A model generated the notes under the pieces. That model was not told the origin of the DNA. It was given only the letters and a program-made list of their open reading frames with translations, and made no database searches. A stretch of DNA of 64,000 bases from a virus: IMG/VR virus record IMGVR_UViG_3300036852_000742, positions 17,121 to 81,120 of that record. The stretch is one strand, 5' to 3'. Shown here in pieces: positions 13,124 through 63,200 of the stretch. Within the stretch, counting starts at the first letter, position 1, and the number at the start of each line of letters is the position of its first letter. The position numbers and the translations under genes were made by a program.

Positions 13124-14610
13124 CGGGGGCCGCCTGTCGGCCACGCCGCGAACCAGATGTGGGTCGGGTACTCGTGTTCAGCCCCGTCGTCCAGGCGGAT
13201 GGTCACCCAGTCGCCGCGCTCGCCGCGCCTGTCCACGGGGGAGCAGTACGCGACCGGGCCGGCGAAGTTTCGGATGAGGTGCCGACCGTTGAAGCCCCGG
13301 TCCCAGACGCCTTTGACGATGTCACCTACCTCGATCCGGTCGACCCGGATGTCTTCGGGGTCACCGGGTGGGAACTCCCACGCGGGGGTGCCGACGACCG
13401 GGGTCAGCGACGCGGCGATGTCCGGGACCGGTTCGCCGGCCTCAAGCCGGTCGTACACGTCCAGGTAGGCGGCGCTCAGCGCCCGGGTCGCGGCAACGTC
13501 GGCGCCGGGGGCGGGTTGGCGTACCGCTACCTCAACGTCGGCAGCACCCAGGTCAAGCCCATGTACCAGTCGCTGCGCCCATTCGACGTGCCTGGCGAGC
13601 TGGCGTGACGCGTCGTCGTACCGGCCGCCGGTGCGCCTCCACAGTTGCTGCCAGCGGTCAACCTTGGAGGCGAGCGCCGCCGACCATGGGGTGCTGGCCG
13701 GGGTGTCCCACTGCATCCCGTCCCGGCGCCGGCCGGTGACCCCGTCGTACTTGACGGTCTTCGGCCAACTGCTGCTGGCCAGGGAGACACTCTTCGGGTT
13801 GATCCGGGTGACCTTGTACCAGCCGTGCCCCCCGACCCGAGCCCAGTCACCTTTGGCGAAGTCTTCCGGCGCCCCAGCAACGAACTCACCGGACGCGGCC
13901 AGCTCTTCGAGCACCTTCCGCCAGTGGCGGATCTCTTCTGCGAGCCGGTCGACCTCGCGTTGCGACTTCTCTCCGGTTCCGCCGCTGGTCAGGGAGTCAT
14001 CCCGGCGCCGCTCCCACTGCCGCACCTCGGCCGACAAGGTGTCGATCCGGCGCATCGTGACCCTCGGGTTGTGCCGGGCCTTCTGGTTGGCTGCTACACC
14101 GTCGGCCCGGTCGGCGAGGTCCCGGGCGTAGCGGCGTTCGTCGGCGGCGTGCTCCTGGCTGCGGCTGGCCCGCTCCCGACGGTTCCGGTCAGCCGGGTAG
14201 GAGTAATGGTCGACTAGCAACGGCTGCCCGAACGGGATCGAGTCGTGGACCCGGTCGGCGGCGGCCTGGTGGCCGGCGGCGCGGGTAGCGGCGAGGCCTG
14301 CGCGTTCGTCGAGCCGGTCGGCGCGGACCTCAGCCCGGTCGGTCCGGGCAGCCTCCCGTACGGCGGTGGGCCGCCACCGGTTGTCGATCTGGACGGTGAC
14401 CACGTGGTCGGCGTCGCGCAGCGCCTGCGCAGCGCGATCGGTCTTCTCCTGCTGGCCGTCCTTGTCGCGGCTGTTTTTGATGTAGATGCCGACGGTACGA
14501 CCCCACGTGAAGCCGTGCCGGCTGACGATCTCCAACACGCCGTCGCCCTTGTGGGAGCCAGTTAACAGGGTCCCGTCGGCGTGGGTGTGGCTGATAAGGA
14601 TTGCGGTCAT
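13120..14610 (-). CDS. DUF3560 domain protein
   Basis: This is a 496-residue protein. The N-terminal ~90 residues (ILISHTHADGTLLTGSHKGD, then W-x-R-x-x-G-I-Y-I-x-x-S-R-D) match the DUF3560 family found on actinobacterial plasmids and phages. A long Arg/Ala/Glu-rich coiled-coil-like region follows (residues ~90-270), with many A-x-R-A-D repeats, and then a globular C-terminal half. The family has no established activity. It is the longest gene of this operon and may be a DNA-associated structural or regulatory protein. Confidence 0.7.
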   Translation of the reverse strand: MTAILISHTHADGTLLTGSHKGDGVLEIVSRHGFTWGRTVGIYIKNSRDKDGQQEKTDRAAQALRDADHVVTVQIDNRWRPTAVREAARTDRAEVRADRLDERAGLAATRAAGHQAAADRVHDSIPFGQPLLVDHYSYPADRNRRERASRSQEHAADERRYARDLADRADGVAANQKARHNPRVTMRRIDTLSAEVRQWERRRDDSLTSGGTGEKSQREVDRLAEEIRHWRKVLEELAASGEFVAGAPEDFAKGDWARVGGHGWYKVTRINPKSVSLASSSWPKTVKYDGVTGRRRDGMQWDTPASTPWSAALASKVDRWQQLWRRTGGRYDDASRQLARHVEWAQRLVHGLDLGAADVEVAVRQPAPGADVAATRALSAAYLDVYDRLEAGEPVPDIAASLTPVVGTPAWEFPPGDPEDIRVDRIEVGDIVKGVWDRGFNGRHLIRNFAGPVAYCSPVDRRGERGDWVTIRLDDGAEHEYPTHIWFAAWPTGGPR

Positions 14611-15077
14611 CGTGGTGCTCCTTGGGGAACGGTGAGCAGGATGGCCAGCGCCGCATGGGCGGCGGCGACCCGGATGGTGCTGTGCGCGGCGTCGCGGCGG
14701 CGGTGCTCTTCGCGTTCGGCGGCGCTCACCGAGTGACCGAAGACGACCATCCCGCCGATGCCGCCCCCGTCGGTGACCACGCGGTGTGCGATACCGACCA
14801 GGTCGGCATGCGCAGCAGGTGTGCCGATCCACCGGCGGGCCTGGGGCAAGCTCGCGAACTGGACCTCCAGCTCGGGCAGGAGCGCGGCCAACTCGACGAG
14901 CGGCAGGTAGATCGCCCCCCACGGTGTGCCGGGGGTTTCGAGGCGTTCCACGGCCCATTGCCCGTCCGTCGACTGGGCTGCCCACACCTCCGGGCGGGTG
15001 CGCCCGGAGGTGGGGCCGCCGAGGAACGTGACCCGGCTGCTGGTGGTGACACCCGTCACCGGGGTCACGCCGTTCAC
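14607..15077 (-). CDS. Hypothetical protein
   Basis: This is a 156-residue protein starting at GTG 15077, which overlaps the upstream stop. A beta-rich N-terminal half includes WAAQSTDGQWAVERLETPG, and two hydrophobic helices lie near the C-terminus (ADLVGIAHRVVTDGG; AAHAALAILLTVP). No recognisable family. It overlaps the DUF3560 gene by 4 nt. Confidence 0.5.
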   Translation of the reverse strand: MNGVTPVTGVTTSSRVTFLGGPTSGRTRPEVWAAQSTDGQWAVERLETPGTPWGAIYLPLVELAALLPELEVQFASLPQARRWIGTPAAHADLVGIAHRVVTDGGGIGGMVVFGHSVSAAEREEHRRRDAAHSTIRVAAAHAALAILLTVPQGAPR

Positions 15078-15385
15078 AGCGCGTCCTCTTCTTGGCAGCA
15101 GCCGCAGCAGAACCGGTGCCCGGTGTTGCACGGGCCAACACCCAGTTGGTGCGGTTCGTGGCAGTGCTGGTGGTCGCAGTCGACCGGCTCCGGGTCGGCG
15201 CAGGTTTTGTGGGGCTGGAGCGCCCGGCATTGCTGGTCGGTGGGGGTGTCGGCGCATTCGGCGCAGGCGTCGGCGTGGACCCATCGGCCGGCGGTGTAGG
15301 CGAGGAGCCCACCGCAGGTGCACTGGGCGATGGCGGTGCGCAGTGCGGGTTGGGTGGTGACAAGGGTCAGGGCCGGTGCGGGCAT
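15074..15385 (-). CDS. Cys-rich small protein, first gene of the 15-10 kb operon
   Basis: This is a 103-residue protein with at least 13 Cys: CTCGG, HADACAECAD, then CRALQPHKTCADPEPVDC, and CCGCCQEE at the end. It probably holds two or more zinc sites. The ATG at 15385 follows GAGACGGAAACCC, similar to the leaders after other phage promoters. It is directly downstream of the minus promoter of the divergent pair. Confidence 0.55.
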   Translation of the reverse strand: MPAPALTLVTTQPALRTAIAQCTCGGLLAYTAGRWVHADACAECADTPTDQQCRALQPHKTCADPEPVDCDHQHCHEPHQLGVGPCNTGHRFCCGCCQEEDAL

Positions 15386-26229: not shown

Positions 26230-26249
26230 CCCCCGTCTAAGGGCGGGGG
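26230..26249 (-). other. Right-end hairpin of the IS605-type element / omega-RNA scaffold end
   Basis: Stem CCCCCG (26230-26235) with CGGGGG (26244-26249), 8-nt loop. In IS605 elements the RNA from the 3' end of tnpB through the right end acts as the guide RNA of TnpB. The guide would be the sequence just outside the element, toward 26200. Confidence 0.6.
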
Positions 26250-27460
26250 ATTCCAACTGCAAGCGGTTGAGGTTCACGGGCGCTCAACGCCTTGCGGCGT
26301 GTCGCCCCTCCGGCACGAGACGGTTGTCTCGGGACTGGTGTGCAGTCCTGTCCTGCCGCGATGTTGATGCTGGCGTTGTGGTCGGCGTTGCAGGTAAAGC
26401 CGCAGGCGGTGCAACAGAATCGGGCTTGGCTCTCGCGCGAGTTCTTGTCGATCCATCCGCAGGCACTGCAACGCAGGCTGGTGTAGGCGGCTTTGACTTT
26501 CTGGACGCGGCCGGGGGCTTTGTCTTCGGTGCGCCGGGCGAGCATGCCCCACCCGGACGCGAGGATGGCCCGGTTCAGGCCGGCCTTCTGCCGGACGTTG
26601 CGGCCGGGGCTATCGACGGTGCCCCTTGCGGTCGCGGTCATGTTCTTGATCCGCAGGTCTTCGAGGCGGATCACGTCGAACCGGCGGGCGAATGCGGTGC
26701 TGGTTTTCTCGGTCCAGTCCTTGCGGATGTCCGCCTCGCGTGCCTTGAGCCGTGCGATCCGCTGACGCTCAACCTGCACTACCTCGGACCGCTTCGGTGC
26801 CCGAGCCTTGCGCCGTTCTGCCTTACGCAGTCGGGCCCGCTCTTTGCTGGACAGGCGAGGGCAGGCCAGTGTTTCGCCCGTGCTCAACGCGGCCGTGATG
26901 GTCACGCCCCGGTCGACGCCGACAACCGTTCCGTTTCCGGGAGACTCGATCGGGTCGGGGATGACCGCGAACGCGACGTGCCAACGCCCGGAGCGGTCAC
27001 AGGTGATGCGGTACGACTTGCATGCCGCAACGGATCGCGACCAGCGGAACCGAACCCAGCCAACCTTGGGAACCTTGACCTGACCCCAGTGTCGGTTCAG
27101 CCGTTGGACATGGAGTCCGAAGGTGAAGTCGGTGATCCGGAAGCCTTCGTGGACGTACTTGCTGCGCCACGTCGGCCGCATGTGGGCGCCCGTAAAGAAG
27201 TTGGCCATGGCTTGGGCGTAGTCGCGCAGAGCCTGTTGCTGGACGTTAACCGAACCGGCGGCGAGCCACGGCTCGGCGGTGCGCGCTTCGGTGAGTTGGC
27301 GGCACTGGACGACGAAGCTGGGGGCCGACCGACGGGCACGCGCGGGCGTCCACCACGCTCCCTGTTCAACGGCCAGATTCCAGACGTACCGGGCGTCACC
27401 GCAGTGCGACAGAAGGGTCGCCTCCTGCGCCACGGTCGGGTACAGCCGATACCTGGACAT
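26237..27460 (-). CDS. tnpB: TnpB RNA-guided nuclease (IS200/IS605 family OrfB)
   Basis: This is a 407-residue protein, normal length for TnpB. RuvC-I is TVVGVDRGVT with Asp183, RuvC-II is DVIRLEDLRIKN with Glu267, and the zinc finger is CSACG (Cys331/334) with CCTACG (Cys350/353). RuvC-III is CNADHNASINI with Asp360. All three catalytic acids are intact, unlike the Cas12m-like protein nearby. The start is taken as MSRYRLYP at 27460; the open frame extends upstream without a sensible start. TnpB cuts DNA guided by omega-RNA and helps the element persist at its site. The gene interrupts the lysis region. Confidence 0.92.
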   Translation of the reverse strand: MSRYRLYPTVAQEATLLSHCGDARYVWNLAVEQGAWWTPARARRSAPSFVVQCRQLTEARTAEPWLAAGSVNVQQQALRDYAQAMANFFTGAHMRPTWRSKYVHEGFRITDFTFGLHVQRLNRHWGQVKVPKVGWVRFRWSRSVAACKSYRITCDRSGRWHVAFAVIPDPIESPGNGTVVGVDRGVTITAALSTGETLACPRLSSKERARLRKAERRKARAPKRSEVVQVERQRIARLKAREADIRKDWTEKTSTAFARRFDVIRLEDLRIKNMTATARGTVDSPGRNVRQKAGLNRAILASGWGMLARRTEDKAPGRVQKVKAAYTSLRCSACGWIDKNSRESQARFCCTACGFTCNADHNASINIAAGQDCTPVPRQPSRAGGATRRKALSAREPQPLAVGIPRP

Positions 27461-27488
27461 GGAACCATAATAGCACCATGATGGTCCC

Positions 27489-27638
27489 ATGAAGCATGTG
27501 AACCTGCGCCTACCCGACGACGTCCACGAGGCAGTCAAAGCAGCCGCCGAACACGACCGACGTTCCCTCAACAGCATGCTGATCGTCCTCATCGAGCGAG
27601 CCCTCACGGCAGACCGTCCAACCTCACCCCCGCCCTGA
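27489..27638 (+). CDS. Ribbon-helix-helix (Arc/HicB-like) protein of the tnpB element
   Basis: This is a 49-residue protein: MKHVNLRLPDDVHEAVKAAA, then EHDRRSLNSMLIVLIERALT. One strand plus two helices with RSLNSM is the classic Arc/CopG ribbon-helix-helix pattern. It is divergent from tnpB with only 28 nt between starts, so it may repress the shared promoter region. A TTCATGGGACCATC-type stretch between them is a possible operator. It probably travels with the element. Confidence 0.75.
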   Translation: MKHVNLRLPDDVHEAVKAAAEHDRRSLNSMLIVLIERALTADRPTSPPP

Positions 27639-27722
27639 AGGACGAGGCACCCGCCGGACAAGGGTCGGTGGCTGCCGGATCCGCACCGCCGCCCCGGTGA
27701 ATCGACGGCCCGGGTGCGCGGT

Positions 27723-28160
27723 TCAGAGTTTGAGGATGATCGCAAGGATCGAGCCTGCGAGGATCGCCGCCCCGCACAGGTACGCCCAGCCCAGATTCAG
27801 CCCGGTCGAGCGGCCTTCGGTCTTGTCGATCCTGGACGCCAACTCACGTATCCGCTCACCGGTACCGGCGCGCTGTGCCTCAAACTCGACGCGCGACACG
27901 AACGTGGCCGTCTGATCAGACAGGGTCTGACGAAACTCGTTGACCCCTTCGAAGCGTTTCTCCGTGGCCACTTCAGCCTTCGTGACGGCTTTCTCCGCCG
28001 CGATCAGCGCCGCCCCGATGGCCTTCTCGGCCGCGAGGAGGGCCGCGTCGATTGCTTTTGTCTGGGCGTCGAAACGCTGCTGGTAGCGCAGATCAGTTTC
28101 GACGAACAAGGCCCGGACATGCTCCAGGAGTGTGATACGTGAAGACCTCACACCCCACAC
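27723..28160 (-). CDS. Coiled-coil protein with C-terminal membrane anchor (second holin candidate)
   Basis: This is a 145-residue protein. A long helical region with repeated LLAAEKAIGAALIAAEKAVT units (residues ~35-60) and charged heptads is followed by one C-terminal hydrophobic segment (WAYLCGAAILAGSILAIIL). This is the shape of the small tail-anchored proteins next to actinophage endolysins, thought to act as holins or membrane adaptors. GTG 28160 follows GGGG; an internal GTG at 28148 is possible. It lies 11 nt after the amidase gene. Confidence 0.65.
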   Translation of the reverse strand: MWGVRSSRITLLEHVRALFVETDLRYQQRFDAQTKAIDAALLAAEKAIGAALIAAEKAVTKAEVATEKRFEGVNEFRQTLSDQTATFVSRVEFEAQRAGTGERIRELASRIDKTEGRSTGLNLGWAYLCGAAILAGSILAIILKL

Positions 28161-43556: not shown

Positions 43557-44072
43557 TCAGGTGGCGATGGCCTGTGAGGTGCGCAGCGACGCCAGCAGGT
43601 TGTTGGTCTTGGTGCGTGCCGTGCCGACGTCGGTGACCAGCGCCGCGACCGGGGTACGTACCGCCACCACGTCCACCACCGACGCGGCGATGGGTGTGCG
43701 CATCGCGGCGATGTCCGTCACGAGTTTGACGACTTCGGCGCGTACGGCGGTGAGGTCGGTGACCAGCTTGACGACCTCCGCGCGTACGGCGGTGAGGTCA
43801 GCGGTGGTCTGGTTGTGCTCGGCCTCAGTTGGGGACTCACCGCCCGTGATCGTCGCCGATGTCATCGCGGCGGGGGCAACGGCGGTCAACGCCGCAGGGT
43901 TCGCCGCCGTGAGCGCAGCAGGTGCCGCCGCCGTGAGCGCGGCCGGGGCGGCAGCGGTCAACGCGCCGAGGTCGGCAACCGCCGCACCCTGGTTCATGTC
44001 ACCGGCGGCGATCTGACCGTCGGCGTCGAGCGTGGCCAGCCCGTTGGGCTGGCCCTTAGCGGTCAGTGCCAT
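43557..44072 (-). CDS. Repeat-containing head fibre-like protein
   Basis: This is a 171-residue protein. The N-terminus (KGQPNGLATLDADGQIAAG) is the short domain seen at the start of phage fibre proteins. Residues ~38-68 have four near-copies of A-A-x-P-A-A-L-T-A, and ~92-120 have two exact copies of LTAVRAEVVKLVTD, then more coiled-coil-like sequence. This suggests a trimeric coiled-coil head fibre. It overlaps the upstream gene by 17 nt. Confidence 0.6.
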   Translation of the reverse strand: MALTAKGQPNGLATLDADGQIAAGDMNQGAAVADLGALTAAAPAALTAAAPAALTAANPAALTAVAPAAMTSATITGGESPTEAEHNQTTADLTAVRAEVVKLVTDLTAVRAEVVKLVTDIAAMRTPIAASVVDVVAVRTPVAALVTDVGTARTKTNNLLASLRTSQAIAT

Positions 44073-44363: not shown

Positions 44364-45560
44364 CTACGAACCGGTCCCGTTGGACGCCACGGCCGACTTC
44401 GGGTCCATCAAAGTGCCGCCGAAAACGTGCCTTATCTTCCATTCGACACTATCTGTGCCGAAATCGCCCTCTTCGGGCGCGAGGAGGCCGCCGCCGACGC
44501 GGACCGCGTTGGCGAGCTTCTGGAACAACTCGGGCTGCTCGTGGCCGATGAGGAAACCGACCTCGGCGGCCGGCCGTCCGGTGGACGGGTTCGCGAACAG
44601 GTACCAGGACGTGCCGCCGTTGGTGGTGGAGATGATCGGCAGCCACGGGTTGACGACCACGGATACCCGGTTCCGCATCCAGTTGATGGCGCGGAGCTGG
44701 TCGTTGCCGGTGCCGTCGCCGCCGCCGGTCCCGGCCAGGATCTCGGTCGCGTTGATGATGTTGTTGGCGGTGACTTCCAGGGCCGGTGGGACCACAAGGA
44801 CGGTTCCGTCGATGTAGATGGGGGAGCTGTCGGTGTCGAGCTGCGCGGCGAGGACCGTGTACGCGGTCTGGAGCGCCTGGATCGACAGGGCCGGGTTGGA
44901 GGTGACGATGTTGGCGTTGCCGGATGCGAAGAAGGTGCCGTCCGGGCCGGTTGTTCCGGCGTACAGGTCGGTGGCGAAGCGTTCCTCCGACCGGCGGGCG
45001 GCGTTGCCGAGGCGGTCGGGCAGGTCCCGGAACGCGTCCAGGTCGTCGTTGATCAACGTTTCCCAGGACAGGTGCAGGCGCCGGCCGCGCTTGGTGACCG
45101 CGTAGCTGTACTCGGCGTCGGTCAGGCTGGCAGCCGGGTACTCGGCCTGCTGCGCGACGGCGTCCAGTACCGCCTCACCCCCGTCGAGGGTGAAACGCTT
45201 CACGGTGCGGAAGTCGCGCACCCGACCGCGCTTGGCGACCCGGTCCCACTGGATCGGGGCCTGGTTGTAGGCCGCCAGTAGCTGCCGGTCGAGGATGTCG
45301 CCGAACAGGTTCGTGAAGTCCGACGTGGTCATTGCCTCGATGAAGTCCAAACCGGCGCGCTGGTTGCCGGCGAGTACCCGCTTGTACAGGTGCGCCGCCT
45401 CCAGGAGACGGCGCCGGTACTCGGGGTTGCCGGTGCGGCGCCCGCCGCGCAGGCGCGCGGACAGACTGGTGCCTTCACCGGCGTAGATGGTGGCGGTGGA
45501 CGCCTGGGACGCATCCCAGGTACCGACGTCGGGCAGGACGTCGAGAACGTTGCTGCTCAT
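44364..45560 (-). CDS. Major capsid protein (HK97 fold)
   Basis: This is a 398-residue protein in the expected place after protease/scaffold and decoration genes. TSDFTNLFGDILDRQLLAAY, WDRVAKRGRVRDFRTVKRFT and NDDLDAFRDLPDRLGNAARR are typical of one actinophage capsid group (N-arm, then E-loop and P-domain). The AINWMRNRVSVVVNPWLPII region near 290-310 fits the A-domain. The start MSSNVLDVLP lies 19 nt after the decoration gene. Confidence 0.85.
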   Translation of the reverse strand: MSSNVLDVLPDVGTWDASQASTATIYAGEGTSLSARLRGGRRTGNPEYRRRLLEAAHLYKRVLAGNQRAGLDFIEAMTTSDFTNLFGDILDRQLLAAYNQAPIQWDRVAKRGRVRDFRTVKRFTLDGGEAVLDAVAQQAEYPAASLTDAEYSYAVTKRGRRLHLSWETLINDDLDAFRDLPDRLGNAARRSEERFATDLYAGTTGPDGTFFASGNANIVTSNPALSIQALQTAYTVLAAQLDTDSSPIYIDGTVLVVPPALEVTANNIINATEILAGTGGGDGTGNDQLRAINWMRNRVSVVVNPWLPIISTTNGGTSWYLFANPSTGRPAAEVGFLIGHEQPELFQKLANAVRVGGGLLAPEEGDFGTDSVEWKIRHVFGGTLMDPKSAVASNGTGS

Positions 45561-45579: not shown

Positions 45580-45936
45580 CTAGTAGCCGAGCTTGACTTG
45601 GATGGTGGCGGTGGCTGCTGAGGTGACGGCTTCGAGCGCGTAGCCGAAACGGACCCCGCTGGTGGCTTTCTTGCTCAGCTTCGGCGTGTCGCCGGTCTGG
45701 TAGTAGATGATGTCGCCGGCCGCCACAGCGCTGTTGCCGGACGAGTCGACAGCCTTGACGGACAGGTCGTAGACACCCTTGGTGGTGATGGTTGTCAGAC
45801 CGTCGGCCGTTTCGGCGATCAGCGCGACACCGGGGATCTGCCCGCACAGGACCGGCCCGCCGGAGGCGGGGGTGGTCGGGTCGGTGCAGACCAAGGACAG
45901 GTTGTCCCCGTCCTCGTAGACCTCGTTGGTAGCCAT
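45580..45936 (-). CDS. DUF2190-like capsid decoration protein
   Basis: This is a 118-residue beta-rich protein. The N-terminus (YEDGDNLSLVCTDPTTPASG), VALIAETADGLTTITTKGVY and AVAAGDIIYYQTGDTPKLSK follow the DUF2190 pattern of head-stabilising proteins placed before the capsid gene. Confidence 0.75.
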   Translation of the reverse strand: MATNEVYEDGDNLSLVCTDPTTPASGGPVLCGQIPGVALIAETADGLTTITTKGVYDLSVKAVDSSGNSAVAAGDIIYYQTGDTPKLSKKATSGVRFGYALEAVTSAATATIQVKLGY

Positions 45937-47833: not shown

Positions 47834-48916
47834 TTACGCGGCGGCTCCGGCCAGGGCGGCGCGGCGCCGAAGTTCAGCTACAGGGGTGGGGCCGTAGGAG
47901 TCGCGCCAGCCGGTGTTGGTGCGGCGTTGCGCGAGGTCGTCCCAGGTGACGCGCCCGGAGCGCAGCAGGTCGAGCCGACCCGCGCCCATGATCGCGACCT
48001 GGTCGTCTTCGGGGAGCCGCGCGAACCAGGCCCGCGCGTCGGGCAACGTGTGCGGGGGTTCGTTGAGGTTGATGCCCAACTCCCGCCAGGTGCGGGTACG
48101 GGGCACCCGCACGCACCGGCCCCGAGGGTGGTCCAGCGGGCCGGGGTCCTCAACCGGGTGCACAGTCCCATTCATCGAAATGCATGTGAGACATGTCCGG
48201 TTTGAGAAAAAACAGTGCCACACCCACGACTCGACGACGTCGGCGTTCGCGTTGTGCACGTACCGGGAGGTGGTGCGGTACGCGTCGAGCATTTCGGTCC
48301 GGGCGATCGTCATCGCCCGGGTCAGCCCACCGTTGAACGCGCCCTGGACACGGCGCACCATCTGCCGGGCGGCGTCGTTCGGGTTGGTGCCCTCGGCGAT
48401 GCCCCGGATCAGTTCACGGCGCATCGCCTCTGTCGCCGCCGCCGACAACGGCAGCAGTGTTGATGTGATCTGCCCGCCGGTACGGGCCACGATCGCGTCG
48501 AGCGCGGTGGGTTGGGTGCGGCCGGTGAACCGTTTCGCCGCCTCGCCTTGTTCCCCGGCGGGGAGTTGGGAGGCGATCAGGTGCGGTTCGGCTTCGGCTG
48601 TGGCGTGGATGATGTGCCCGGCGCCGTCGGTGACGAGGACCCCGGTGCGTTGCCCGAGGCGGCCCAGGGACAGTTGCGCAGCCCACAACGCGTCGCGGAG
48701 ACGTTGGATGCGGACCAGTTCCCACGGTTGCGGCCAACGACCTGTTGCCGCCCACACGTCGACGGCGTCGACGACACCCGCGCGCATTGCTGTGTCCAGC
48801 TCGGCCCACGCCCGCGCCCACGCAACGGTCAGGTCGCGGGTGGTCTGGTCGGCGTGCCGGCCGACGGTGACCCGCAACCGCCGGGACAGGCGCATCGTCT
48901 TCGGGCCGATCGCCAT
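47834..48916 (-). CDS. MuF-like head morphogenesis protein
   Basis: This is a 360-residue protein. A helical N-terminal half leads into the MuF domain: MTIARTEMLDAYRTTSRYVH, then VESWVWHCFFSNRTCLTCIS, MNGTVHPVEDPGPLDHPRGR and CRC-type Cys/His residues. MuF proteins are minor capsid proteins that are injected or help assemble heads. It follows the portal and Ntn hydrolase genes. Confidence 0.88.
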   Translation of the reverse strand: MAIGPKTMRLSRRLRVTVGRHADQTTRDLTVAWARAWAELDTAMRAGVVDAVDVWAATGRWPQPWELVRIQRLRDALWAAQLSLGRLGQRTGVLVTDGAGHIIHATAEAEPHLIASQLPAGEQGEAAKRFTGRTQPTALDAIVARTGGQITSTLLPLSAAATEAMRRELIRGIAEGTNPNDAARQMVRRVQGAFNGGLTRAMTIARTEMLDAYRTTSRYVHNANADVVESWVWHCFFSNRTCLTCISMNGTVHPVEDPGPLDHPRGRCVRVPRTRTWRELGINLNEPPHTLPDARAWFARLPEDDQVAIMGAGRLDLLRSGRVTWDDLAQRRTNTGWRDSYGPTPVAELRRRAALAGAAA

Positions 48917-48937: not shown

Positions 48938-49135
48938 TCAGGTACGGCTGATCTCGATACCGCCGAGCGTTCGGATAAGACGGAGTAGCTTGTCGTCGCC
49001 GATGTACTCGACGTGCACGATGGGGAACTGGTTAACACCGATGTCGATGACGACGCGGCGGGCCTGGTCCAGGTTGGGGATGATCCCGGCGTCGTGCAGG
49101 GCGGCGAAGGCCTGATCGGGTGTGACGACAGACAA
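48938..49135 (-). CDS. Small hypothetical protein in head module
   Basis: This is a 65-residue protein (DQARRVVIDIGVNQFPIVHV, then EYIGDDKLLRLIRT), alpha/beta, between the Ntn hydrolase and MuF-like genes. No family recognised. Confidence 0.5.
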   Translation of the reverse strand: MSVVTPDQAFAALHDAGIIPNLDQARRVVIDIGVNQFPIVHVEYIGDDKLLRLIRTLGGIEISRT

Positions 49136-49147
49136 CCGGGGGCCCCC

Positions 49148-49681
49148 CTATTCCAGGGACAGTGACAGGAACGGGCCGCGTACCCCAGCGGAGAACCGTT
49201 CGGCGGCGCGCAACGCCACATCGACCCGCGCCGCCGGTGCCATGGTGGTGTCGGTGGCGTACAGGGCGCCGAGGGCGACGTCGGCGCCGCAACCAACAGC
49301 GGCGTACCCGTCGGCGGCTTCCCCGACCTGGTAGTCCGACTCGACTTTGAACAGCCGTCCGGTGACACCGACCAGGAACGTGCCGCCCTCTTCCCGTTCG
49401 GTGTCTTTCTTGGCCCAGCCGCCTTCTTTCAGGCAGTCCCGCAAGGCGTCGATGAACGTGGTGGCCATGTACCGGTCCAGGTCAGCCGCCGGGGTCGGGA
49501 GCTTCAGCGTGTACCGGATGAGCTGGCCCATGCGGAACGAGTCGGTGAACCCGAACAGGTAGTCGCCGACGCGGAACACTTTCGCGTCGGCGCGCACCGT
49601 CATGGACCAGTCGGCTACTCCGGCGGAGTCACCGCCGATGTGCACCGTGCCGTCGCCGACCAAACCAACCACAGCGGTCAC
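49148..49681 (-). CDS. Proteasome beta/HslV-like Ntn hydrolase
   Basis: This 177-residue protein has the length of HslV. After removal of the initiator residue (GTG start) Thr becomes residue 1. Counting from it, GGDSAG puts Asp at 17 and ADAKVF puts Lys at 33. These are exactly the Thr1/Asp17/Lys33 positions of proteasome beta and HslV subunits. The fold pattern agrees: TAVVGLVGDGTVHIGGDSAG, KVFRVGDYLFGFTDS, FLVGVTGRLFKVES, YAAVGCGADVALGALYAT. It lies between portal and MuF-like genes, although a separate prohead protease is present. No HslU/ATPase partner is visible. Catalytic competence is inferred. Confidence 0.82.
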   Translation of the reverse strand: MTAVVGLVGDGTVHIGGDSAGVADWSMTVRADAKVFRVGDYLFGFTDSFRMGQLIRYTLKLPTPAADLDRYMATTFIDALRDCLKEGGWAKKDTEREEGGTFLVGVTGRLFKVESDYQVGEAADGYAAVGCGADVALGALYATDTTMAPAARVDVALRAAERFSAGVRGPFLSLSLE

Positions 49682-49698: not shown

Positions 49699-51411
49699 TT
49701 ACGCTGCGGTGGTCTTGGCGCCGGCCGGCTCCGGCTCCTCTTCCTCTTCCTTGTCGTCGTCGGCCATGGGTCCGCCGTCGACCATGGCCGGGTCTTCACC
49801 GTTGGCCAGGGCGTCGGCGGCGGCCTGCCCGGCCCCGCCCAAAGGCGCGGCGGACGGCCACTGGAACACCCCGTCGTCGTCGAGGAGTTCGTCCACGATT
49901 TCGTCGACGTCACGCACACCGAGGGCGATGAGGAGCAGCCGGGCGATGTGCTCGGGTGGGATGACCCCGGTGGCTGAGGCTTTGACGATGGCGTCGACCA
50001 CCACAGCCGGGTCAACATCGTCCAAATCTGGCCAGGAAACGTCGATGGTCGGTTCGGTGTCACCGGCCAACGCCAGGTACTCGCGGCCGGTGTCCGGGTC
50101 GCGGCGCAGCGAGCCCCGCAGTGTGCCTTGCGGGGCCCGGACCGCCTCGGTGATGACGTGGCGCAGGATCCGCTGGTAGGCCGCAGCCCACAGCTCCCGC
50201 CGCTGCGCCATGGCCAGCTCGGTGGGCTGGTCAAGGGTTTCGGCGGTGGCCCGCGCCCCGGTCTGCCCAGGGTCGGACAGCAACATCGTCACCGGCACAT
50301 CCAGCGCGGCGGCGACCATCATCGCCAACGGCCGACCGGAGCCGGCGTCGATGGTGGCGCCCGACTTGGAGATTGCCTCCAATGCCACGTCGGGCGGGAT
50401 GATCGCGGTGCCGCCGGCAGAGTTCGGGGCACCGGTCGCGGCGTCGGTGGTCGGTGCGGTCGTGAGGCGGGTACGGATCGCGGCGGCTTTGTTCCCGGGG
50501 GCGGTGACCCGCCACGTGTACCGGGACAGCGACCGCATCAGCCGCGCCCAGTCCTCCAGGAACTCTTTGTACGCCCGAGCCCAGTCGATGGCGGCGTACG
50601 CGTCGGGCACACCGCGCTGCCACCCTTCAAGGTCGTTGACGCGGATGTGCAGCATGGGTGAGTCCCACGCCACCGGCACCCCGTCAAAAGCCCGGGGCCG
50701 TGACGCGGGCCGGTAGTCCACGCACGGGTACAAACGCTCCATCGCTGTCACGACCTGCCGGCCGTGGGTGTCGTAGGACACCTGCTGCCACACCCGCCGG
50801 TAGTACCAGGGCTCGGACCGGTCCTCAGGGTTCGTGACGATCGTGCTGATCTCGTCGGCGAGGACAACCCGCACCTGCACGGTGCCGGAGCGTGGGCGGG
50901 TGAACAGGGCCACGAACAGTTCCCCGTCGGTGCCCAAACAGCGCTCCAGGCGCTCGCGGGCGCTGGCACCGGTGAACGCCCGCTGGTTGGAGTCGTCGCC
51001 CAGGAAGTCCTGCACGACGGCGTTGACGTCCTGCTCGCCGGGTTCCAGGCGCCGCCCGGTGGCGCGGGCCGCGATCTGCACACCCTGGCCCCACACGTAC
51101 GCCGCCCGCAGCGCCAACCCCCGCTTGATCAGCGGGTTCTTCAGGGCGTACACACGGCAGATGGCCCGGACCTGCACCAGGCCGGGTGCGGAGAACTCCA
51201 GCTCGGCGTGGGCCAGCAGCAACGTCCACCCTGGGTCGGACAGTTGCCGTTCCAGGTCGGAGATCGACTCGGCGAGTAGTTCCCCGTTGCCTTCGGCGAC
51301 CGCCAACTGGTGTTGGGTGGTGTGGATGGCGTGGCGCAGCGCCGGCACCCCGGCTGCTGTCTCCGCAAGGTTGCGCAGGGGGCCCGGCAGGCGCACGGCG
51401 ACCCCCCGCAC
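49699..51411 (-). CDS. Portal protein
   Basis: This is a protein of about 570 residues between terminase and head genes. Recognisable stretches are VRAICRVYALKNPLIKRGLA, YVWGQGVQIAARATGR, DTHGRQVVTAMERLYPCVDY and ARAYKEFLEDWARLMRSLSR. LDVPVTMLLSDPGQTGARAT is the turn typical of actinophage portals. The C-terminus is an acidic low-complexity tail (DDDKEEEEEPEPAGA). The start is uncertain: GTG 51411 is taken, 5 nt after the terminase stop. Confidence 0.85.
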   Translation of the reverse strand: MRGVAVRLPGPLRNLAETAAGVPALRHAIHTTQHQLAVAEGNGELLAESISDLERQLSDPGWTLLLAHAELEFSAPGLVQVRAICRVYALKNPLIKRGLALRAAYVWGQGVQIAARATGRRLEPGEQDVNAVVQDFLGDDSNQRAFTGASARERLERCLGTDGELFVALFTRPRSGTVQVRVVLADEISTIVTNPEDRSEPWYYRRVWQQVSYDTHGRQVVTAMERLYPCVDYRPASRPRAFDGVPVAWDSPMLHIRVNDLEGWQRGVPDAYAAIDWARAYKEFLEDWARLMRSLSRYTWRVTAPGNKAAAIRTRLTTAPTTDAATGAPNSAGGTAIIPPDVALEAISKSGATIDAGSGRPLAMMVAAALDVPVTMLLSDPGQTGARATAETLDQPTELAMAQRRELWAAAYQRILRHVITEAVRAPQGTLRGSLRRDPDTGREYLALAGDTEPTIDVSWPDLDDVDPAVVVDAIVKASATGVIPPEHIARLLLIALGVRDVDEIVDELLDDDGVFQWPSAAPLGGAGQAAADALANGEDPAMVDGGPMADDDKEEEEEPEPAGAKTTAA

Positions 51412-51415
51412 TCGT

Positions 51416-52981
51416 TCAGTAGGGGGAGATGCTGAAGGCGTTGTCTTCGACGTCCTCAACCGCCTGTTGGGGCGGCGGGGCGGTGGTGGCGGTCAACATG
51501 ATCGCGTCAGCCCGGTCAGGGGAGGGCATGCCCCGCTTGCGCAGGTCGTCTTTCGACTCGATGACGACCTGCCCGCGTGGGGTGAACCGGTACCTGATCG
51601 CCCCGAGCTGGGCGGCGAGTTCGTCATCGTCGGGGTCCAGGTCAACCGCCCCGGCCTCGAACCTTTCCCGCAGCCCCCAGTACCACTCGGCCCGCGCGTT
51701 CAGGAAACGCTCCGGGTCGCCAGCACCAGCACCGGCTTGCATGTCGACAACGTCGTGACCTTCAGCAACGAGCTGGTCCACAACCCCACCACCGACACCG
51801 ACCCCGTCGACACGGATCTCATGTGCGGCGTGGGCCCGTTTCGCAGCGATGACATAGCCGGTGGTGGCTGTGGTGGCCAGCTTCGCGTGGTCGGAGATGA
51901 CCCGGGTGCGGGGCCACTGGGACAAGGCGATGATGGTGCGGTCCGACCCGTAGCGGGCCACGTCGACACCCAACACCTTGTGGTGGCCTGGTTGCAGTTC
52001 ACGTTCCTGCGCGGCCCGGATCATCGACGGGGTGATCAGGACGTCTTCGCCGATGTCGGGGAACAGGCCCCGGACCTTCGCCGTGAAGATTGGTGAGTTG
52101 GCACCCCACCGGTGGATGCGCTCCTCAATCCACAGTGGGGAGATCAGCAGCGAGCGGAGCCGGTCGGGCACCGGTTCGTCGAACGGCTTCAGCCCAAGCT
52201 GGTCGTACAGGGCAGCGACCCGAGGGTGGGACGCAACAGCCTCGCTGGTCATGTTCGGCGACGCCAGGCCGTCGATGCGGATGACGTGCCATCCGGAACC
52301 GGGCTGGCAGATCGTTGAGAAGTGGCTGGCCGGATCGTCCGGGTTCCCGATGGCCAGCACCCGGGCGGCCTCGTTGGTGGCCAGTGCGTCCACGGCATCG
52401 AACAGGGTGCGGGGCACACCGCACGCCTCATCGACGACGATCAACGGAAAGTCGGCGTGGATGCCCTGGAACGCGGCCTGGTCGTAGTCGGCCGGTTTAC
52501 GCCCGTACCCGATCAGCTCCCCGTCGTCGAGCTGCCACGACGGCACGAACCCGCCGCTGATCCGACCCGGCAACCCGGCCAGCTTGTGCGCCCGCCGGAT
52601 CTCCCGCCACAGGATCGCCGAGACCTGCGCTGCGGTGGGTGCGGTGGTGACCGCGAACGCCTGCCCTTGAGGGTGCACCGACAACCACCACGCCACAGCC
52701 CGGGACGCGATGAACGATTTGCCGACGTCGTGGCAGGACTGGACGGCGGTGTACCGGTTGTCCCGCACCGACTCGATGATCTCGCGCTGTTTCGACCACA
52801 GGTGCTCGCCGAGCCGGTCGGTGATCCAGCCCACCGGGTCGGCCCGGTAGGCGGCGTTCACCGTCTCCTCAACGGCGCGCTGCGCCGATGCGACGGCGGC
52901 ATCCTGGACGGCTTTGGTCTGGTACAAGCTATGCAGGACCTGGAGCCGGTCCAGTTTCCGCCTCTGCAACGGTGTCGACAC
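51416..52981 (-). CDS. Terminase large subunit
   Basis: This is a protein of about 521 residues. The Walker A-like loop is SCHDVGKSF (near 82-90), Walker B is FPLIVVDEACGVP, and the RuvC-like nuclease part has LGVDVARYGSD with later acidic residues (HEIRVDGVGVGGGVVDQL; SPDRADAIMLT). It packages DNA into the prohead. GTG 52981 overlaps the small-subunit gene by 53 nt. Confidence 0.93.
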   Translation of the reverse strand: MSTPLQRRKLDRLQVLHSLYQTKAVQDAAVASAQRAVEETVNAAYRADPVGWITDRLGEHLWSKQREIIESVRDNRYTAVQSCHDVGKSFIASRAVAWWLSVHPQGQAFAVTTAPTAAQVSAILWREIRRAHKLAGLPGRISGGFVPSWQLDDGELIGYGRKPADYDQAAFQGIHADFPLIVVDEACGVPRTLFDAVDALATNEAARVLAIGNPDDPASHFSTICQPGSGWHVIRIDGLASPNMTSEAVASHPRVAALYDQLGLKPFDEPVPDRLRSLLISPLWIEERIHRWGANSPIFTAKVRGLFPDIGEDVLITPSMIRAAQERELQPGHHKVLGVDVARYGSDRTIIALSQWPRTRVISDHAKLATTATTGYVIAAKRAHAAHEIRVDGVGVGGGVVDQLVAEGHDVVDMQAGAGAGDPERFLNARAEWYWGLRERFEAGAVDLDPDDDELAAQLGAIRYRFTPRGQVVIESKDDLRKRGMPSPDRADAIMLTATTAPPPQQAVEDVEDNAFSISPY

Positions 52982-53393
52982 TGCCGACCTGACCGAGTTC
53001 GGCGGAGAGCCGCTGGATCTCCTGCTCGATTGCGTCAAGGGTGATCACCTCGTAGCGCGTCGGCGCGTCGAGGCCCAAGAGCTTGATCCGCCTGTCGATG
53101 ATTTTCAGTGCGGTGTCGGCCGCGCGGGGGTCACCGGCGAGCGCCGCCGCCCACACCCCAACCTGGAGCCGGTCCAGGCGTTGAAGTTCCTGCTCACGCA
53201 AGGTTTCGGAGTACTGGGCGGTCTCCGCGACGGCAATCTCGTAGGCGCGGGAGATGTCTTTGCACGCGGCGGCCCGGCTGGAGTAGCCGAGGGCATCGGC
53301 GATGCGCTGTAGTTCGGCGCCGGCCAGTTTCATCGCGACGGCCTGGGCGCGGCGGGTGGCGGTCGCGGCGCGCTGGGCCCTGGAAGGGGGCAC
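52929..53393 (-). CDS. Terminase small subunit-like protein
   Basis: This is a 154-residue protein just upstream of the large subunit. The N-terminal helix-turn-helix (GAELQRIADALGYSSRAAAC) and the following coiled helices (RLDRLQVGVWAAALAGDPRA) are typical of small terminases, which recognise the packaging site. The start is GTG 53393. Confidence 0.78.
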   Translation of the reverse strand: MPPSRAQRAATATRRAQAVAMKLAGAELQRIADALGYSSRAAACKDISRAYEIAVAETAQYSETLREQELQRLDRLQVGVWAAALAGDPRAADTALKIIDRRIKLLGLDAPTRYEVITLDAIEQEIQRLSAELGQVGSVDTVAEAETGPAPGPA

Positions 53394-58633: not shown

Positions 58634-60100
58634 TCAGTCTCGGTGAGCACTGATCGCCTTGGTCTCTAGATAGTGCCCGAGCCCTTCTGGCCCCAGCTCC
58701 CGCCCGATGCCAGAGTCTTTGTATCCACCCAGCGGGGTGTTCACGCCGATCGGCGCACCGTTGACCTGGACGGTACCGGCCCGGATCTGACGGGCCAGAC
58801 CTCCGGCGCGGTACGAGTCGGAGGTCCATACACCTGCGTCGAGTCCGTACGGCGAGTCGTTGGCCAGGTCGACAGCCTCCTGGTCGGAGTCGAACGGGAT
58901 GACGGCCAGGACCGGGCCGAAGACTTCCTCCCGGGCGATCGGCATGGCGTTGTTGACACCGGTGAAGATGGTCGGCTGCACGTACCAGCCTGTGTGCAGC
59001 CCGGCCGGGCGTTGGCCGCCACGGACCAGGGTCGCACCGGCCTCTACTGCGCCGTGGATGTAGCGCTCGACCTGATCGCGTTGTCGTTTGCTGACCAGCG
59101 GCCCGACCTCGGTGACCGGATCGGTCGGGTCGCCGATCGGCATGCTGTCCACCAGCCCGACGAGCCGGTCAACGAACTGGTCATGTAGGGAACGGTGGAC
59201 CAGCAGGCGGGTGTGGGCCGAGCAGATCTGCCCCGTGTTGGCCAGGGACGCGCCCTTGAGCGCGGGCACGACCTGATCCAGGTCGGCGTCGTCACAGATG
59301 ATCGCCGCCGATTTGCCACCAAGCTCCAGCGACACCCGCCGCAGGTTGTCCCCGCACATGGCGGCGATGCGCCGGCCGACGGCGGTCGACCCGGTGAACG
59401 CGACCTTGTCAACATCGGGATGGGCGACCAGGTACTCGGCGACCACCCCGTTGCGGCGCACCGGGACAACGTTGAGCACCCCGGCAGGCAAGCCCACGTC
59501 GTCACACACACGGGCCAGCAGCATCGCGTCCAGAGGCGTCTCAGCGGCCGGCTTGACCACTACTGTGCAACCCGCCAGCAGGGCCGGGGCCAGCTTCATG
59601 ATGATGGTCTTCTGCGGCATGTTCCAGGGCACGATCGCGGCGACGACTCCCACCGGCTCACGGATCACTAAGGCGCTGCCGGTGGCGTCATCTCGGCGCT
59701 CTGCCCAGGTGTACCGGCCGGCCAGGTCCACGTAGTACCGGAGGATCGCGACCGGATCCGGGACCTGCCGGGTCTTCGACCAGGTGATCGGGCAACCCAT
59801 CTCGGCGGTAATCAGTTCGGCCATCGTGTCGGCGTACCGCTCGTACAGGGTGACGATGCGGGACAGGACACCGGCCCGGTCGACTGGGCTGGACCGGGGC
59901 CAGACACCCTGATCGAACGCCCGCCGGGCGGCCGCCACAGCCCGATCAACGTCGCCTCGACCAGCGTCGGGAACGTACCCGAGGGCCTGTTCGGTCGCCG
60001 GGTTGACGACCGTGACCGGATCTGCGGTGCCGACCGGCTGGCGCCAGGCCCCGTCGATGTACAGCCGGTCGTACGTGAGCAGGTCCGGGGCGAGCGCCAT
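58634..60100 (-). CDS. Aldehyde dehydrogenase (NAD(P)-dependent)
   Basis: This is a 488-residue, full-length ALDH. IVPWNMPQ (cofactor and oxyanion Asn), FTGSTAVGRRI (NAD-binding turn), LELGGKSAAI (catalytic Glu) and NTGQICSAHTR (nucleophile Cys) are all present, as are EEVFGPVLAVIPFD and NDSPYGLDAGVW. It oxidises an aldehyde to an acid; the substrate is not evident. It ends 22 nt from the convergent early genes and starts 4 nt after the ParB-like gene. A complete metabolic enzyme of this size is unusual in a phage and is probably cargo. It looks intact. Confidence 0.92.
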   Translation of the reverse strand: MALAPDLLTYDRLYIDGAWRQPVGTADPVTVVNPATEQALGYVPDAGRGDVDRAVAAARRAFDQGVWPRSSPVDRAGVLSRIVTLYERYADTMAELITAEMGCPITWSKTRQVPDPVAILRYYVDLAGRYTWAERRDDATGSALVIREPVGVVAAIVPWNMPQKTIIMKLAPALLAGCTVVVKPAAETPLDAMLLARVCDDVGLPAGVLNVVPVRRNGVVAEYLVAHPDVDKVAFTGSTAVGRRIAAMCGDNLRRVSLELGGKSAAIICDDADLDQVVPALKGASLANTGQICSAHTRLLVHRSLHDQFVDRLVGLVDSMPIGDPTDPVTEVGPLVSKRQRDQVERYIHGAVEAGATLVRGGQRPAGLHTGWYVQPTIFTGVNNAMPIAREEVFGPVLAVIPFDSDQEAVDLANDSPYGLDAGVWTSDSYRAGGLARQIRAGTVQVNGAPIGVNTPLGGYKDSGIGRELGPEGLGHYLETKAISAHRD

Positions 60101-60104
60101 CCTT

Positions 60105-60662
60105 CTACACCGTCCATCCGTTGTTGAACCCAGACTGGGCGGCCCGCTTGAGCATGTCACCCCGGTCCGCGAGACGGTCGACCTCCTCCTCGTCCATCTC
60201 CAGCCGCCGGCCGATCTCTTCCGGGGTCATCCCGAGCCCGAGCAGGTCCGCCACGATGTCAGCCATCCCCAGGACATGGTGGGTGCCCCGGGCCCGGTTG
60301 TGGCGCACGGTCGCTAGCCGGGCGAGCGCCTGGTCCGGCTGCACCAGCTCAACCGTCGGCACATACCCGGCGGTAAGCGCGAACACCTGCGGGTCGGCTG
60401 AGGCCATCCATCGGTGGTAGCCATCCACGATCTCGTAGAGTGGCCCGGCCCCGTCTTCACCCTCCTCGTGGATCACGATGGGCTGGGTCCAGCCATTCTC
60501 CAGGATCGACTTCCTGAGCAGCCGACGCTCAGGCGGTGCGGCCTGGTTCGGGTTCCATGTGTTCGCCCGTAGCCGGTCGCGTGAGATCCACCGGACCGTA
60601 GAGATCGGCTGGCAATCGACCGCCGCCGAAGCCTCGCTTGTTGAGCCGATGAAGCTCGTCAT
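60105..60662 (-). CDS. ParB/Srx-like (IbrB-type) protein with re-created N-terminus
   Basis: This is a 185-residue protein. The ParB_N core is visible: STVRWISRDRLRANTWNPNQ, SILENGWTQPIVIHEE, YEIVDGYHRWMA, and HNRARGTHHVLGMADIVADL followed by a helix-turn-helix-like end (GMTPEEIGRRLEMDEEEVDR). Proteins of this type are paired with PAPS-reductase-like IbrA proteins in phages and prophages. Its first ~45 codons overlap the endonuclease gene by 134 nt in a different frame. A second, divergent copy of the same N-terminal segment stands at 61169-61255. It appears functional. Confidence 0.8.
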   Translation of the reverse strand: MTSFIGSTSEASAAVDCQPISTVRWISRDRLRANTWNPNQAAPPERRLLRKSILENGWTQPIVIHEEGEDGAGPLYEIVDGYHRWMASADPQVFALTAGYVPTVELVQPDQALARLATVRHNRARGTHHVLGMADIVADLLGLGMTPEEIGRRLEMDEEEVDRLADRGDMLKRAAQSGFNNGWTV

Positions 60663-61168: not shown

Positions 61169-61255
61169 GTTCCAATCGTTTGCGGACAACGTCTCCCGGG
61201 GCACCCACTCGACGCGGGTCACTGGCTGGGTGTCGACAGATACGGCAGTGGTCAT
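61169..61255 (-). pseudogene. Displaced 5' fragment of the ParB-like gene
   Basis: The ATG at 61255 overlaps the stop of the IbrA-like gene. It encodes 29 residues ending RVEWVPRETLSANDWN, which match 12 of 23 positions of the ParB-like N-terminus (TVRWISRDRLRANTWN). Homology stops exactly after the final Asn; the frame then runs on through the endonuclease region without meaning. It is the original start of the ParB-like gene, cut off by the homing gene. Confidence 0.75.
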
Positions 61256-62601
61256 TCGGCGACAGGCTCTCGGGCGTAGGGCGGAACAAGGGCGTGCGGG
61301 TCGGCGGGCTGACGGCCGGGGTGCGCCAGGTCGCCGAAGGTGCCGTCGGTGATCACAGCGGTCAGGTCTTTGGCGTAGCGGTGCCAGTACTTGGGGAGGG
61401 TCCGGCCCTGGTCGTCGGTCATTAGCCGGCCGCCGGTTTGTTTCCGGTTTTTGAAGTCGCCGCGCATCGCAAGCATGAGGAGGAAGTCCCAGGACAGGCC
61501 TGTGCCCGGGTGCGGCGCGGTGGGTGCGATCGGGTCGGTGGTCTTGCGGTAGTGCAGGGTGATCTCGTCCCGGCAGCGGGCGGCGATGAACGCTGACTCG
61601 GTGGGCCGGAACTGCTCCAGATAATGGACGATGAAATCGGGCCAGGGCATGCCGGCGGGTTTGTCGGGCCGGCCCCGGTACGAGTACAGCTCGGTCAAGG
61701 CGTAACGGGACGCTGCCCCAACACCTGGGACACGATCGACCATTTTTTCCCACACGTCCGGGAAACACTGGGCATAGGTGTGGATCTTCTGGAGGGGTTC
61801 CTCACCGAACGCGGGTGAGCAACGCTGGGTGCTCCGGCCAAGGCCGGCCATCTCCAGCCGGTCGTAGGCCCGGTTGTAGTCCCACCCTTTCAACGCGGGG
61901 GCGGTCCATACGTCGTCGGTGGTCCAGTCATAGACCGGGTACGCCTTCCACAGGTTCCCCTGTGATGTGCCAGATGAGTCGAACTTGGTCAGGTAGTTGA
62001 GTTCCCGCCCGGTCTTGGTCACCGCCCTACGCCGTGTCAACGACTCCTGCGCCCGAATGCCCATGAACATGACGCAGTTACCGAGCCGGGGCGGGAACAG
62101 CAACCCGTTGGTGTCGGGTGCGGACAGGCGCGCCTCAGGCGGGTCGATCGGGAACCCGTCCAGGGTCACAAGCGCTTCATCGGGCAACGGCCGGCACCAC
62201 AGGTCGCGGGCCTCCGGCGCCCACGGCCACCAGTACGGGCTCTTACGCGAGCAGGCGTTGCGGTGTTTGAGAGGCAGGCAGTACCACTCCAGGTTGACGT
62301 CGCCGCGTTGGGCGATGCGCCGGACGTACTCCACGGTCTCGAACGGGATGGCTTCCTCGTCCTGGAAGAATGCCCGCAGCGGCAGGTGCCGTTCGTAGCG
62401 CGGGTCGGAGTGGGCTACCTCAAGGACGACCTGCAAGGTGGCGGTGGAGTCTTTGCCGCCGCTGAACGCGACCGCGACGTGGTCGAACCGGTCCAGCACG
62501 AGGGCTGTCCGTTCCAGCGCGAGGGTGTACACATCAGTGTCGAGCGGTCGCTGGCGGAGTGTTGCTTTGGCCTTCGCCGCAGGTGGGGGTTGCTGTTTCA
62601 T
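61252..62601 (-). CDS. IbrA-like PP-loop ATPase (PAPS reductase/DndC family)
   Basis: This is a 449-residue protein. FSGGKDST (47-53) is the PP-loop; LPLRAFFQDEEAIPFETVEY, MFMGIRAQESLTRRRA, AYPVYDWTTDDVW and a distal RCSPAFGEEPLQ are typical of the IbrA/PAPS-reductase-like group. Such enzymes adenylate a substrate; IbrA with IbrB (ParB-like) is known as a prophage regulator pair, and DndC relatives act in DNA phosphorothioation. It overlaps the amidotransferase gene by 4 nt upstream and the ParB fragment by 4 nt downstream. Confidence 0.85.
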   Translation of the reverse strand: MKQQPPPAAKAKATLRQRPLDTDVYTLALERTALVLDRFDHVAVAFSGGKDSTATLQVVLEVAHSDPRYERHLPLRAFFQDEEAIPFETVEYVRRIAQRGDVNLEWYCLPLKHRNACSRKSPYWWPWAPEARDLWCRPLPDEALVTLDGFPIDPPEARLSAPDTNGLLFPPRLGNCVMFMGIRAQESLTRRRAVTKTGRELNYLTKFDSSGTSQGNLWKAYPVYDWTTDDVWTAPALKGWDYNRAYDRLEMAGLGRSTQRCSPAFGEEPLQKIHTYAQCFPDVWEKMVDRVPGVGAASRYALTELYSYRGRPDKPAGMPWPDFIVHYLEQFRPTESAFIAARCRDEITLHYRKTTDPIAPTAPHPGTGLSWDFLLMLAMRGDFKNRKQTGGRLMTDDQGRTLPKYWHRYAKDLTAVITDGTFGDLAHPGRQPADPHALVPPYAREPVAE

Positions 62602-63200
62602 ACGGTCACCGCCGCGTCCTCGGCTACCGGTCGGGCATCGGGATGGAACGCCCACGATGACAGGTAAGTACCGACGTTGGTCGCCAGACGGTGCAGCGGG
62701 TGGTAGCGGCGGTGGGCGTACATCTGGCCGTCGACGTCGAGCACGACGACAACCCATGATCGGGCGGTGAACACGGCGGCCAGCTTGGCGAGGGTGTCCG
62801 TTGGTGGCACCCCGTGGCCGCGCATCGCAGCGTACGCGGCGGCGAGGGCGTACGAGTCGGTGATCGCGTCTGGTGCCAGGTCGTCAGGGTTGTCGATGAC
62901 CCCGTTGTGCGCGACGGCGTGCGCTCCGGCCAGCGCCGGCTGTAGCTGCTCCGGCGCCTGCCAGTCCCCGACTGTGGCCAGCCGGGCGTGACCAAGGACA
63001 CGGGTGTCGGTGATGGCGGTGAGGGCGTCACGGTGTGGGCCCAGCGGCCCCAGGTGGCGTACACAGACCGGCGGCGTCCCGGGGTTGTATGTGACCCAAC
63101 CACAGCCGTGGGGCCCGCGACGTCCAGCACCCTCCGCCGCTGCCAGCAACAGTTGCGGGTCGGGCGGGCCGACGCCGGTGTAGGCGAAGATCCCGCACAT
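62598..63200 (-). CDS. Class II glutamine amidotransferase
   Basis: This is a 200-residue protein. It begins MCGIFAYTG, so Cys becomes the N-terminal nucleophile after Met removal. RRGPHGCGWVTYN, LGHARLATVGDW and HAVAHNGVIDNPDDL are the glutamine-binding motifs of class II (Ntn) amidotransferases. It should release ammonia from glutamine. It stands alone, without a fused synthetase domain, between two PP-loop enzymes and overlaps both genes, so a PP-loop partner probably supplies the acceptor. Confidence 0.88.
   Translation of the reverse strand: MCGIFAYTGVGPPDPQLLLAAAEGAGRRGPHGCGWVTYNPGTPPVCVRHLGPLGPHRDALTAITDTRVLGHARLATVGDWQAPEQLQPALAGAHAVAHNGVIDNPDDLAPDAITDSYALAAAYAAMRGHGVPPTDTLAKLAAVFTARSWVVVVLDVDGQMYAHRRYHPLHRLATNVGTYLSSWAFHPDARPVAEDAAVTV

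Follow-up and report, generated by a model that had tools for sequence, protein, structure and literature searches.

A proteasome-type N-terminal-threonine hydrolase gene is recurrently linked to packaging and head operons of tailed phages

The stretch of DNA that was analyzed, hereafter the window, comprises 64,000 nucleotides (positions 17,121 to 81,120 of IMG/VR virus record IMGVR_UViG_3300036852_000742). On its minus strand lies a packaging and head module in the order terminase small subunit (terS), terminase large subunit (terL), portal, a gene for an Ntn hydrolase, a 65-aa ORF, a MuF-like gene, head maturation protease, decoration protein, and major capsid protein (Table 1). The Ntn gene, whose ORF has the coordinates first annotated but is read on the minus strand, opens with a GTG at 49681, 17 nt downstream of the portal stop; its 177 codons end at 49148, and the protein begins M-T. 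The first-pass annotation had placed this gene between portal and MuF-like genes, which is true of its position, with the amendment that the 65-aa ORF separates it from MuF. The separate prohead protease mentioned in the same annotation is real, as its match to phrog_15531 attests. So is the absence of a visible ATPase partner: no AAA_2 or AAA ATPase was found in the whole 81,120-base record and no AAA_2 above its cut-off in 29 related records, with the qualifications that these records may be incomplete and that a host ATPase is possible.

Table 1 Features of the packaging and head module, in window coordinates
Feature	Coordinates	Strand	Basis
Probable terminase small subunit	52929..53393	-	phrog_645 6.1e-30 (PHROG name 'Rnase E'), weak HTH_23; function inferred from position
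Terminase large subunit	51416..53038	-	phrog_2 6.8e-27; 43% identity to Streptomyces phage terminases
Portal protein	49699..51459	-	phrog_10963 1e-114; PF05136 8.6e-8, narrowly short of its cut-off
AAH-like N-terminal-threonine Ntn hydrolase, 177 aa, GTG start	49148..49681	-	phrog_1040, PDB profile matches, AlphaFold2 model
Thr1 codon, nucleophile	49676..49678	-	sequence; 129/129 relatives
Asp17 codon	49628..49630	-	sequence; 129/129 relatives
Lys33 codon	49580..49582	-	sequence; 129/129 relatives
65-aa ORF between Ntn gene and MuF	48938..49135	-	ORF only; no significant family match
MuF-like head morphogenesis protein	47834..48916	-	PF04233 7.6e-11; phrog_241 3e-17
Head maturation protease, possibly with a later start codon	45943..47592	-	phrog_15531 5.6e-24
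Capsid decoration/cement protein	45580..45936	-	PF09956 1.8e-11
Major capsid protein	44364..45560	-	PF25209 2.3e-50

Several other features of the window were recorded. Just downstream of the capsid gene, an ORF at 43557-44072 (minus strand) contains the low-complexity repeats PAALTAA and VRAEVVKLVTDLTA. Near the head module, also on the minus strand, are aldehyde dehydrogenase and PAPS-reductase-like genes (58634-60160 and 61252-62757), which are possibly auxiliary metabolic genes. A transposase (phrog_506, 6.4e-69) is encoded at 26237-27745 on the minus strand, and to its left the tested genes were mostly without phage or Pfam matches, the exceptions being DUF3560 at 13120-15363 and AAA_24 at 8350-9264.

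Counted from the first residue past the initiator Met, Thr1, Asp17, and Lys33 occupy the exact positions of the proteasome triad, as had been noted from the sequence, and the mature protein of 176 residues is indeed close in length to Escherichia coli HslV (175 residues in 1e94_A). In searches against PHROGs, the window protein matched phrog_1040 ('peptidase HslV family') over its full length at E 1.9e-20 and no second family at E below 0.05, which rules out membership in a known head maturation protease family. Pfam gave no match, and no NCBIfam family matched at E up to 1, the HslV equivalogs TIGR03692 and NF003964 included. A missed upstream start was ruled out, since relatives share no homology upstream of M-T. 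A long antisense ORF lies opposite the Ntn gene in 68 loci from GC-rich genomes (e.g., L002 9692-10849); its recurrence is best explained as a codon-shadow artefact and not as a real gene.

We assessed the fold with AlphaFold2, run on a 72-sequence alignment, and compared the resulting model (pLDDT 96, pTM 0.91) with solved structures by Foldseek and VIA-align. The closest solved fold was BPH (5ovs/5ovt/5ovu; Z 21.9, rmsd 2.2-2.4 A over 169 residues), followed by E. coli HslV (Z 20.6) and the Mycobacterium tuberculosis proteasome beta subunit (Z 19.3), and all 1000 chains compared with the model gave Z 8 or more. The model Thr superposes on chain residue 1 of both BPH and HslV. Helices are predicted at 49-58, 68-86, 133-142, and 149-163, with the chain ending after a strand at 172-176, and the protein as modeled has the alpha-beta-beta-alpha fold of proteasome subunits. 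A single-sequence search of the PDB with the window protein returned no significant match, and only profiles reached significance: an eight-relative profile matched HslV at 5.7e-12 and also BPH, with Thr on mature HslV residue 1, and the 72-sequence profile placed BPH 5ovu first, at full length. The comparison with HslV and proteasome beta that the first-pass annotation had proposed as its check therefore returned the proteasome/HslV-type Ntn fold and not a different one.

The narrower identification as HslV did not hold. The window protein resembles HslV in length, triad, and fold, but shares only 17-18% identity with it, and HslV proper was ruled out by the unmatched equivalog models together with the lack of an HslU-type ATPase in the records searched; BPH is structurally closer, and the group matches AAH instead. 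BPH itself differs in sequence (24% identity) and is a bacterial gene found outside phage head operons. A 20S proteasome beta subunit with a propeptide was ruled out because the start codon abuts Thr in 129/129 relatives. Fuchs, Alva, and Lupas described 22 new proteasome homologues in 2021 (PMC8665760), among them PPH (phage proteasome homologue), which has about 140 residues and lacks helix H2; the window protein, with 176 residues and helices 49-58 and 68-86 both present, is not of this type. In the same survey, AAH was placed in group I with BPH and HslV and described as compact, with helices H1-H4, without the C-terminal S12/H5, and without a propeptide (PMC8665760). It was most abundant in actinobacteria and occurred also in alpha-proteobacteria, phages, and Firmicutes (PMC8665760). 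By features matched to this description, we infer that the window protein is a group I AAH-type proteasome homologue: it has the triad, four helices, an M-T start, and no S12/H5, no AAA+ partner was seen, and its length, lack of a propeptide, and taxonomic spread (actinobacteria, rhizobia, Firmicutes, and phages) all fit. What phrog_1040 supplies is a name only, and annotated phage relatives extend to T5-type phage proteins at ~32% identity. The name 'HslV' is thus too specific for a protein that belongs to a known but functionally blank family.

We collected relatives widely to ask how far these features are conserved. tblastn found relatives in 180 phage records, the best being Moorella phage MTATph1 (55%), and locus scans covered 80 IMG/VR loci of 293 confirmed candidates and 80 genome loci of 137 confirmed. 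The genome matches listed came from Micromonosporaceae, Streptomyces, Frankia, rhizobia, and Paenibacillus. Among the matches listed, 129 dereplicated relatives were used for conservation counts. Each triad residue was invariant, and the start codon directly preceded Thr in all of them (ATG in 85, GTG in 36, TTG in 8); it is from this universal M-T start that Thr, as first proposed, is expected to become N-terminal once the initiator Met is lost. Gly43, the expected oxyanion loop residue, was present in 128/129. The loci had been collected by the patterns GFT.SFRM and YMATTFID, which do not cover the triad, so its invariance reflects purifying selection on the active site and not selection of matches. 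Two stretches are conserved specifically in the family, GFT.SFRMGQ and D..Q around residues 115-117. At the position of proteasome Ser129, 113 relatives have Cys and 12 have Ser, so the chemistry may differ.

The enzyme family is already known, and what is new is its genomic context. In 2021 AAH function was unknown, genomic neighborhoods gave no hint of it, and no actinobacterial phages carrying AAH were found (PMC8665760). We scanned the neighbors of the viral relatives against PHROGs and built HMMs from neighbor clusters to map each locus. The neighbors were dominated by terL, portal, MuF/head morphogenesis, prohead protease, major capsid, and terS genes of many families. Head genes were present within the fetched flank in 53 of the 74 viral-type loci (window included), and none of those detected lay on the strand opposite to the Ntn relative. 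With the window excluded, 40 of 73 viral relatives had a head gene within 3 kb, and at least 26 had a terminase, portal, protease, or capsid gene within 700 nt, a lower bound because head genes outside the HMM set are missed. When the window and prophages in genomes were counted, 30 loci had a head gene at 700 nt or closer, and in 17 of them the gap or overlap was no more than 35 nt. The slot varied: between terL and portal in seven loci, terS and terL in four, portal and protease in three, and elsewhere portal and MuF (the window), protease and portal, and others. At least four terL groups (phrog 2, 9, 15, and 38) and at least five portal groups (phrog 12/2662, 21, 145, 10963, and 30703) were involved. 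One locus, L043, carries the window's own module of portal, Ntn relative, protease, and capsid. In Streptomyces sp. STR69 and SID3212 (L118 and L120), the gene sits just upstream of terS-terL-portal-protease, which indicates that some actinobacterial prophages carry an AAH-like gene. The close relatives described here thus differ from the AAH of the 2021 paper in lying in head operons and Streptomyces prophages, neither of which it reported (PMC8665760).

To compare this proximity with chance, a 540-bp gene was placed at random in 16 records fetched nearly whole. Random placement fell within 700 nt of a head gene in 4.9% of cases (2-10% per record), against 10/16 observed, and in all 16 records the Ntn relative was within 2.7 kb of a head gene. 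The binomial p for 26/73 is 6e-16 at a 5% chance rate and 4e-9 at 10%, values that overstate the evidence, since the loci are related; the 16 records used for random placement had been picked from loci with head matches. The nearest IMG/VR matches of the first scan (L002-L004) have no window-type portal or MuF alongside and had suggested a random accessory gene, a reading that wider sampling overturned.

Copies also occur outside head modules. The large lytic phages Moorella MTATph1, Geobacillus E3, and Vibrio 2.058.O have the gene outside the head module, and Micromonosporaceae, Streptomyces, Frankia, and the symbiotic plasmids of rhizobia have bacterial copies around which no phage genes were detected. 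These bacterial copies imply an activity that can do without virion substrates. The tree intermingles phage-head and chromosomal copies, with at least seven context changes, many branches being weakly supported. Within it the window gene falls, with moderate support, among copies from Micromonosporaceae chromosomes (Plantactinospora at 75% identity). The window has a GC content of 67-70%, and if a faecal phage record at 53% is set aside, the nearest matches of its terminase, at 43%, are in Streptomyces phages. Judged from such sequence affinities, the virus likely has an actinobacterial host, probably one of the soil actinobacteria; a host search by plasmid DNA match found nothing. Some non-viral copies have distinctive surroundings. 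Loci L209-L212 include relatives carried by symbiotic plasmids of rhizobia that nodulate legumes: in S. fredii pSfreNXT3b (L210 10001-10546) between nifQ/rpoN and nifS-nifW-fixABC-nifA, and in R. tropici CIAT 899 pRtrCIAT899b (L209 12001-12516) ~7 kb from nifHDK. Further relatives come from Paraburkholderia phymatum and from the chromosomes of nitrogen-fixing Frankia (loci L152-L169), and a possible link between the AAH-like gene and nitrogen-fixing symbionts merits testing. In Dactylosporangium (L092-L095, about 7250-8555), an ORF recognized by eye as a TetR-like regulator ends with a 4-nt overlap onto the chromosomal copy, which suggests an operon outside any phage.

What does the protein do for the phage? 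The first-pass annotation had offered processing of a virion protein, degradation of host proteins, or packaging, and among these the comparative evidence favors a role tied to head assembly. Fold, triad, family, and operon linkage were each established computationally; the proposal that the window protein is an active AAH-type peptidase, made late from the packaging/head operon and acting during head assembly, is one we consider evenly poised between right and wrong. Peptidase activity as such is likely, and we infer the role in head assembly. In the proposed mechanism, host methionine aminopeptidase would strip the initiator Met, freeing Thr1 as the nucleophile; Asp17 and Lys33 would activate it, a propeptide being unnecessary; and the subunits would probably form a ring chamber like that of BPH or HslV, in which unfolded or flexible polypeptides could be cut without a dedicated ATPase. 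Late production from the packaging/head operon would place the enzyme at head assembly, where it would most likely trim or clear head-associated chains, candidate substrates being scaffold or delta-domain fragments freed by the prohead protease and unassembled portal, MuF, or capsid protein. No dedicated unfoldase was seen in its own record or those of 29 relatives, so the enzyme probably acts on chains that are unfolded, flexible, or cut beforehand. Chains of just these kinds arise when proheads mature, and for that reason we favor an enzyme that helps to assemble heads or removes the products of assembly. The protein shares head-operon location and proteolysis with phage prohead proteases but is unrelated to their families, and one of these is encoded separately in the window phage and many relatives; as a general replacement for the prohead protease it was ruled out, because S78, S14, or phrog_15531 proteases coexist with it in the window and in many loci. 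It may be a replacement in single lineages: at L062, which has an SPP1-like portal/MuF/scaffold set, a protease was not found among the genes checked.

Bacterial copies with no phage genes detected around them, and large lytic phages that keep the gene away from their head module, argue against a purely head role, as do the chromosomal copies at 75% identity among the closest relatives listed for the window gene, and the variable slot could be a tolerated insertion region or reflect selection for late expression only. These same free-standing chromosomal and plasmid copies, the early/metabolic-region location in large lytic phages, and the dedicated prohead protease present in the window and many relatives are what an accessory protease (moron or host-takeover factor) would lead one to expect, one that rides the late operon while degrading host or defense proteins or relieving proteotoxic stress. 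We consider this unlikely, though a serious competitor, because recurrent co-directional slots within the terS-terL-portal-protease order are unusual for morons, gaps are often 35 nt or less or the frames overlap, and placement is far above random. That the protein is instead a virion component, packaged near portal and MuF, delivered with the DNA, and active in the next cell, gains from the gene adjoining portal and lying near MuF in the window, and adjoining portal or terL in others, MuF proteins being minor head proteins; the absence of a targeting sequence and of a conserved neighbor, and a slot not restricted to portal/MuF, make it improbable. More improbable again is a sequence-specific ligase or transpeptidase that modifies a head protein in the manner of connectase. 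Proteasome homologues do include this ligase (PMC8665760), and the conserved family motif GFT.SFRMGQ and the Cys at the Ser129 position would suit such chemistry, but the helical insertion that connectase has between S3 and S4 (PMC8665760) is absent from the compact AlphaFold2 model. The mostly Cys residue at that secondary proteasome position and the partner ATPase not found would also fit an inactive structural relative of the proteasome fold, to which we give the least credence, since Thr1, Asp17, Lys33, and Gly43 are essentially invariant over deep divergence and Met always abuts Thr.

Returning to the peptidase acting in head assembly, we tentatively extend it, with rather more doubt than belief, to the broader view that a proteasome-type self-compartmentalizing protease is a general and hitherto unrecognized auxiliary factor of tailed-phage head assembly, repeatedly recruited into the packaging/head operons of phages whose terminases and portals are unrelated, with exchange between phage and bacterial copies. 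AAH-type homologues have so far had no function or context assigned to them, and the head-operon context provides a first testable role for them. If that role is true, it would tie the proteasome family to the maturation of virions, the prophages of Streptomyces (L118 and L120) and Paenibacillus (L141), which have the gene in head position, would be genetically tractable systems for a substrate search, and it would suggest why this family keeps moving among phages, soil actinobacteria, and nitrogen-fixing symbionts.
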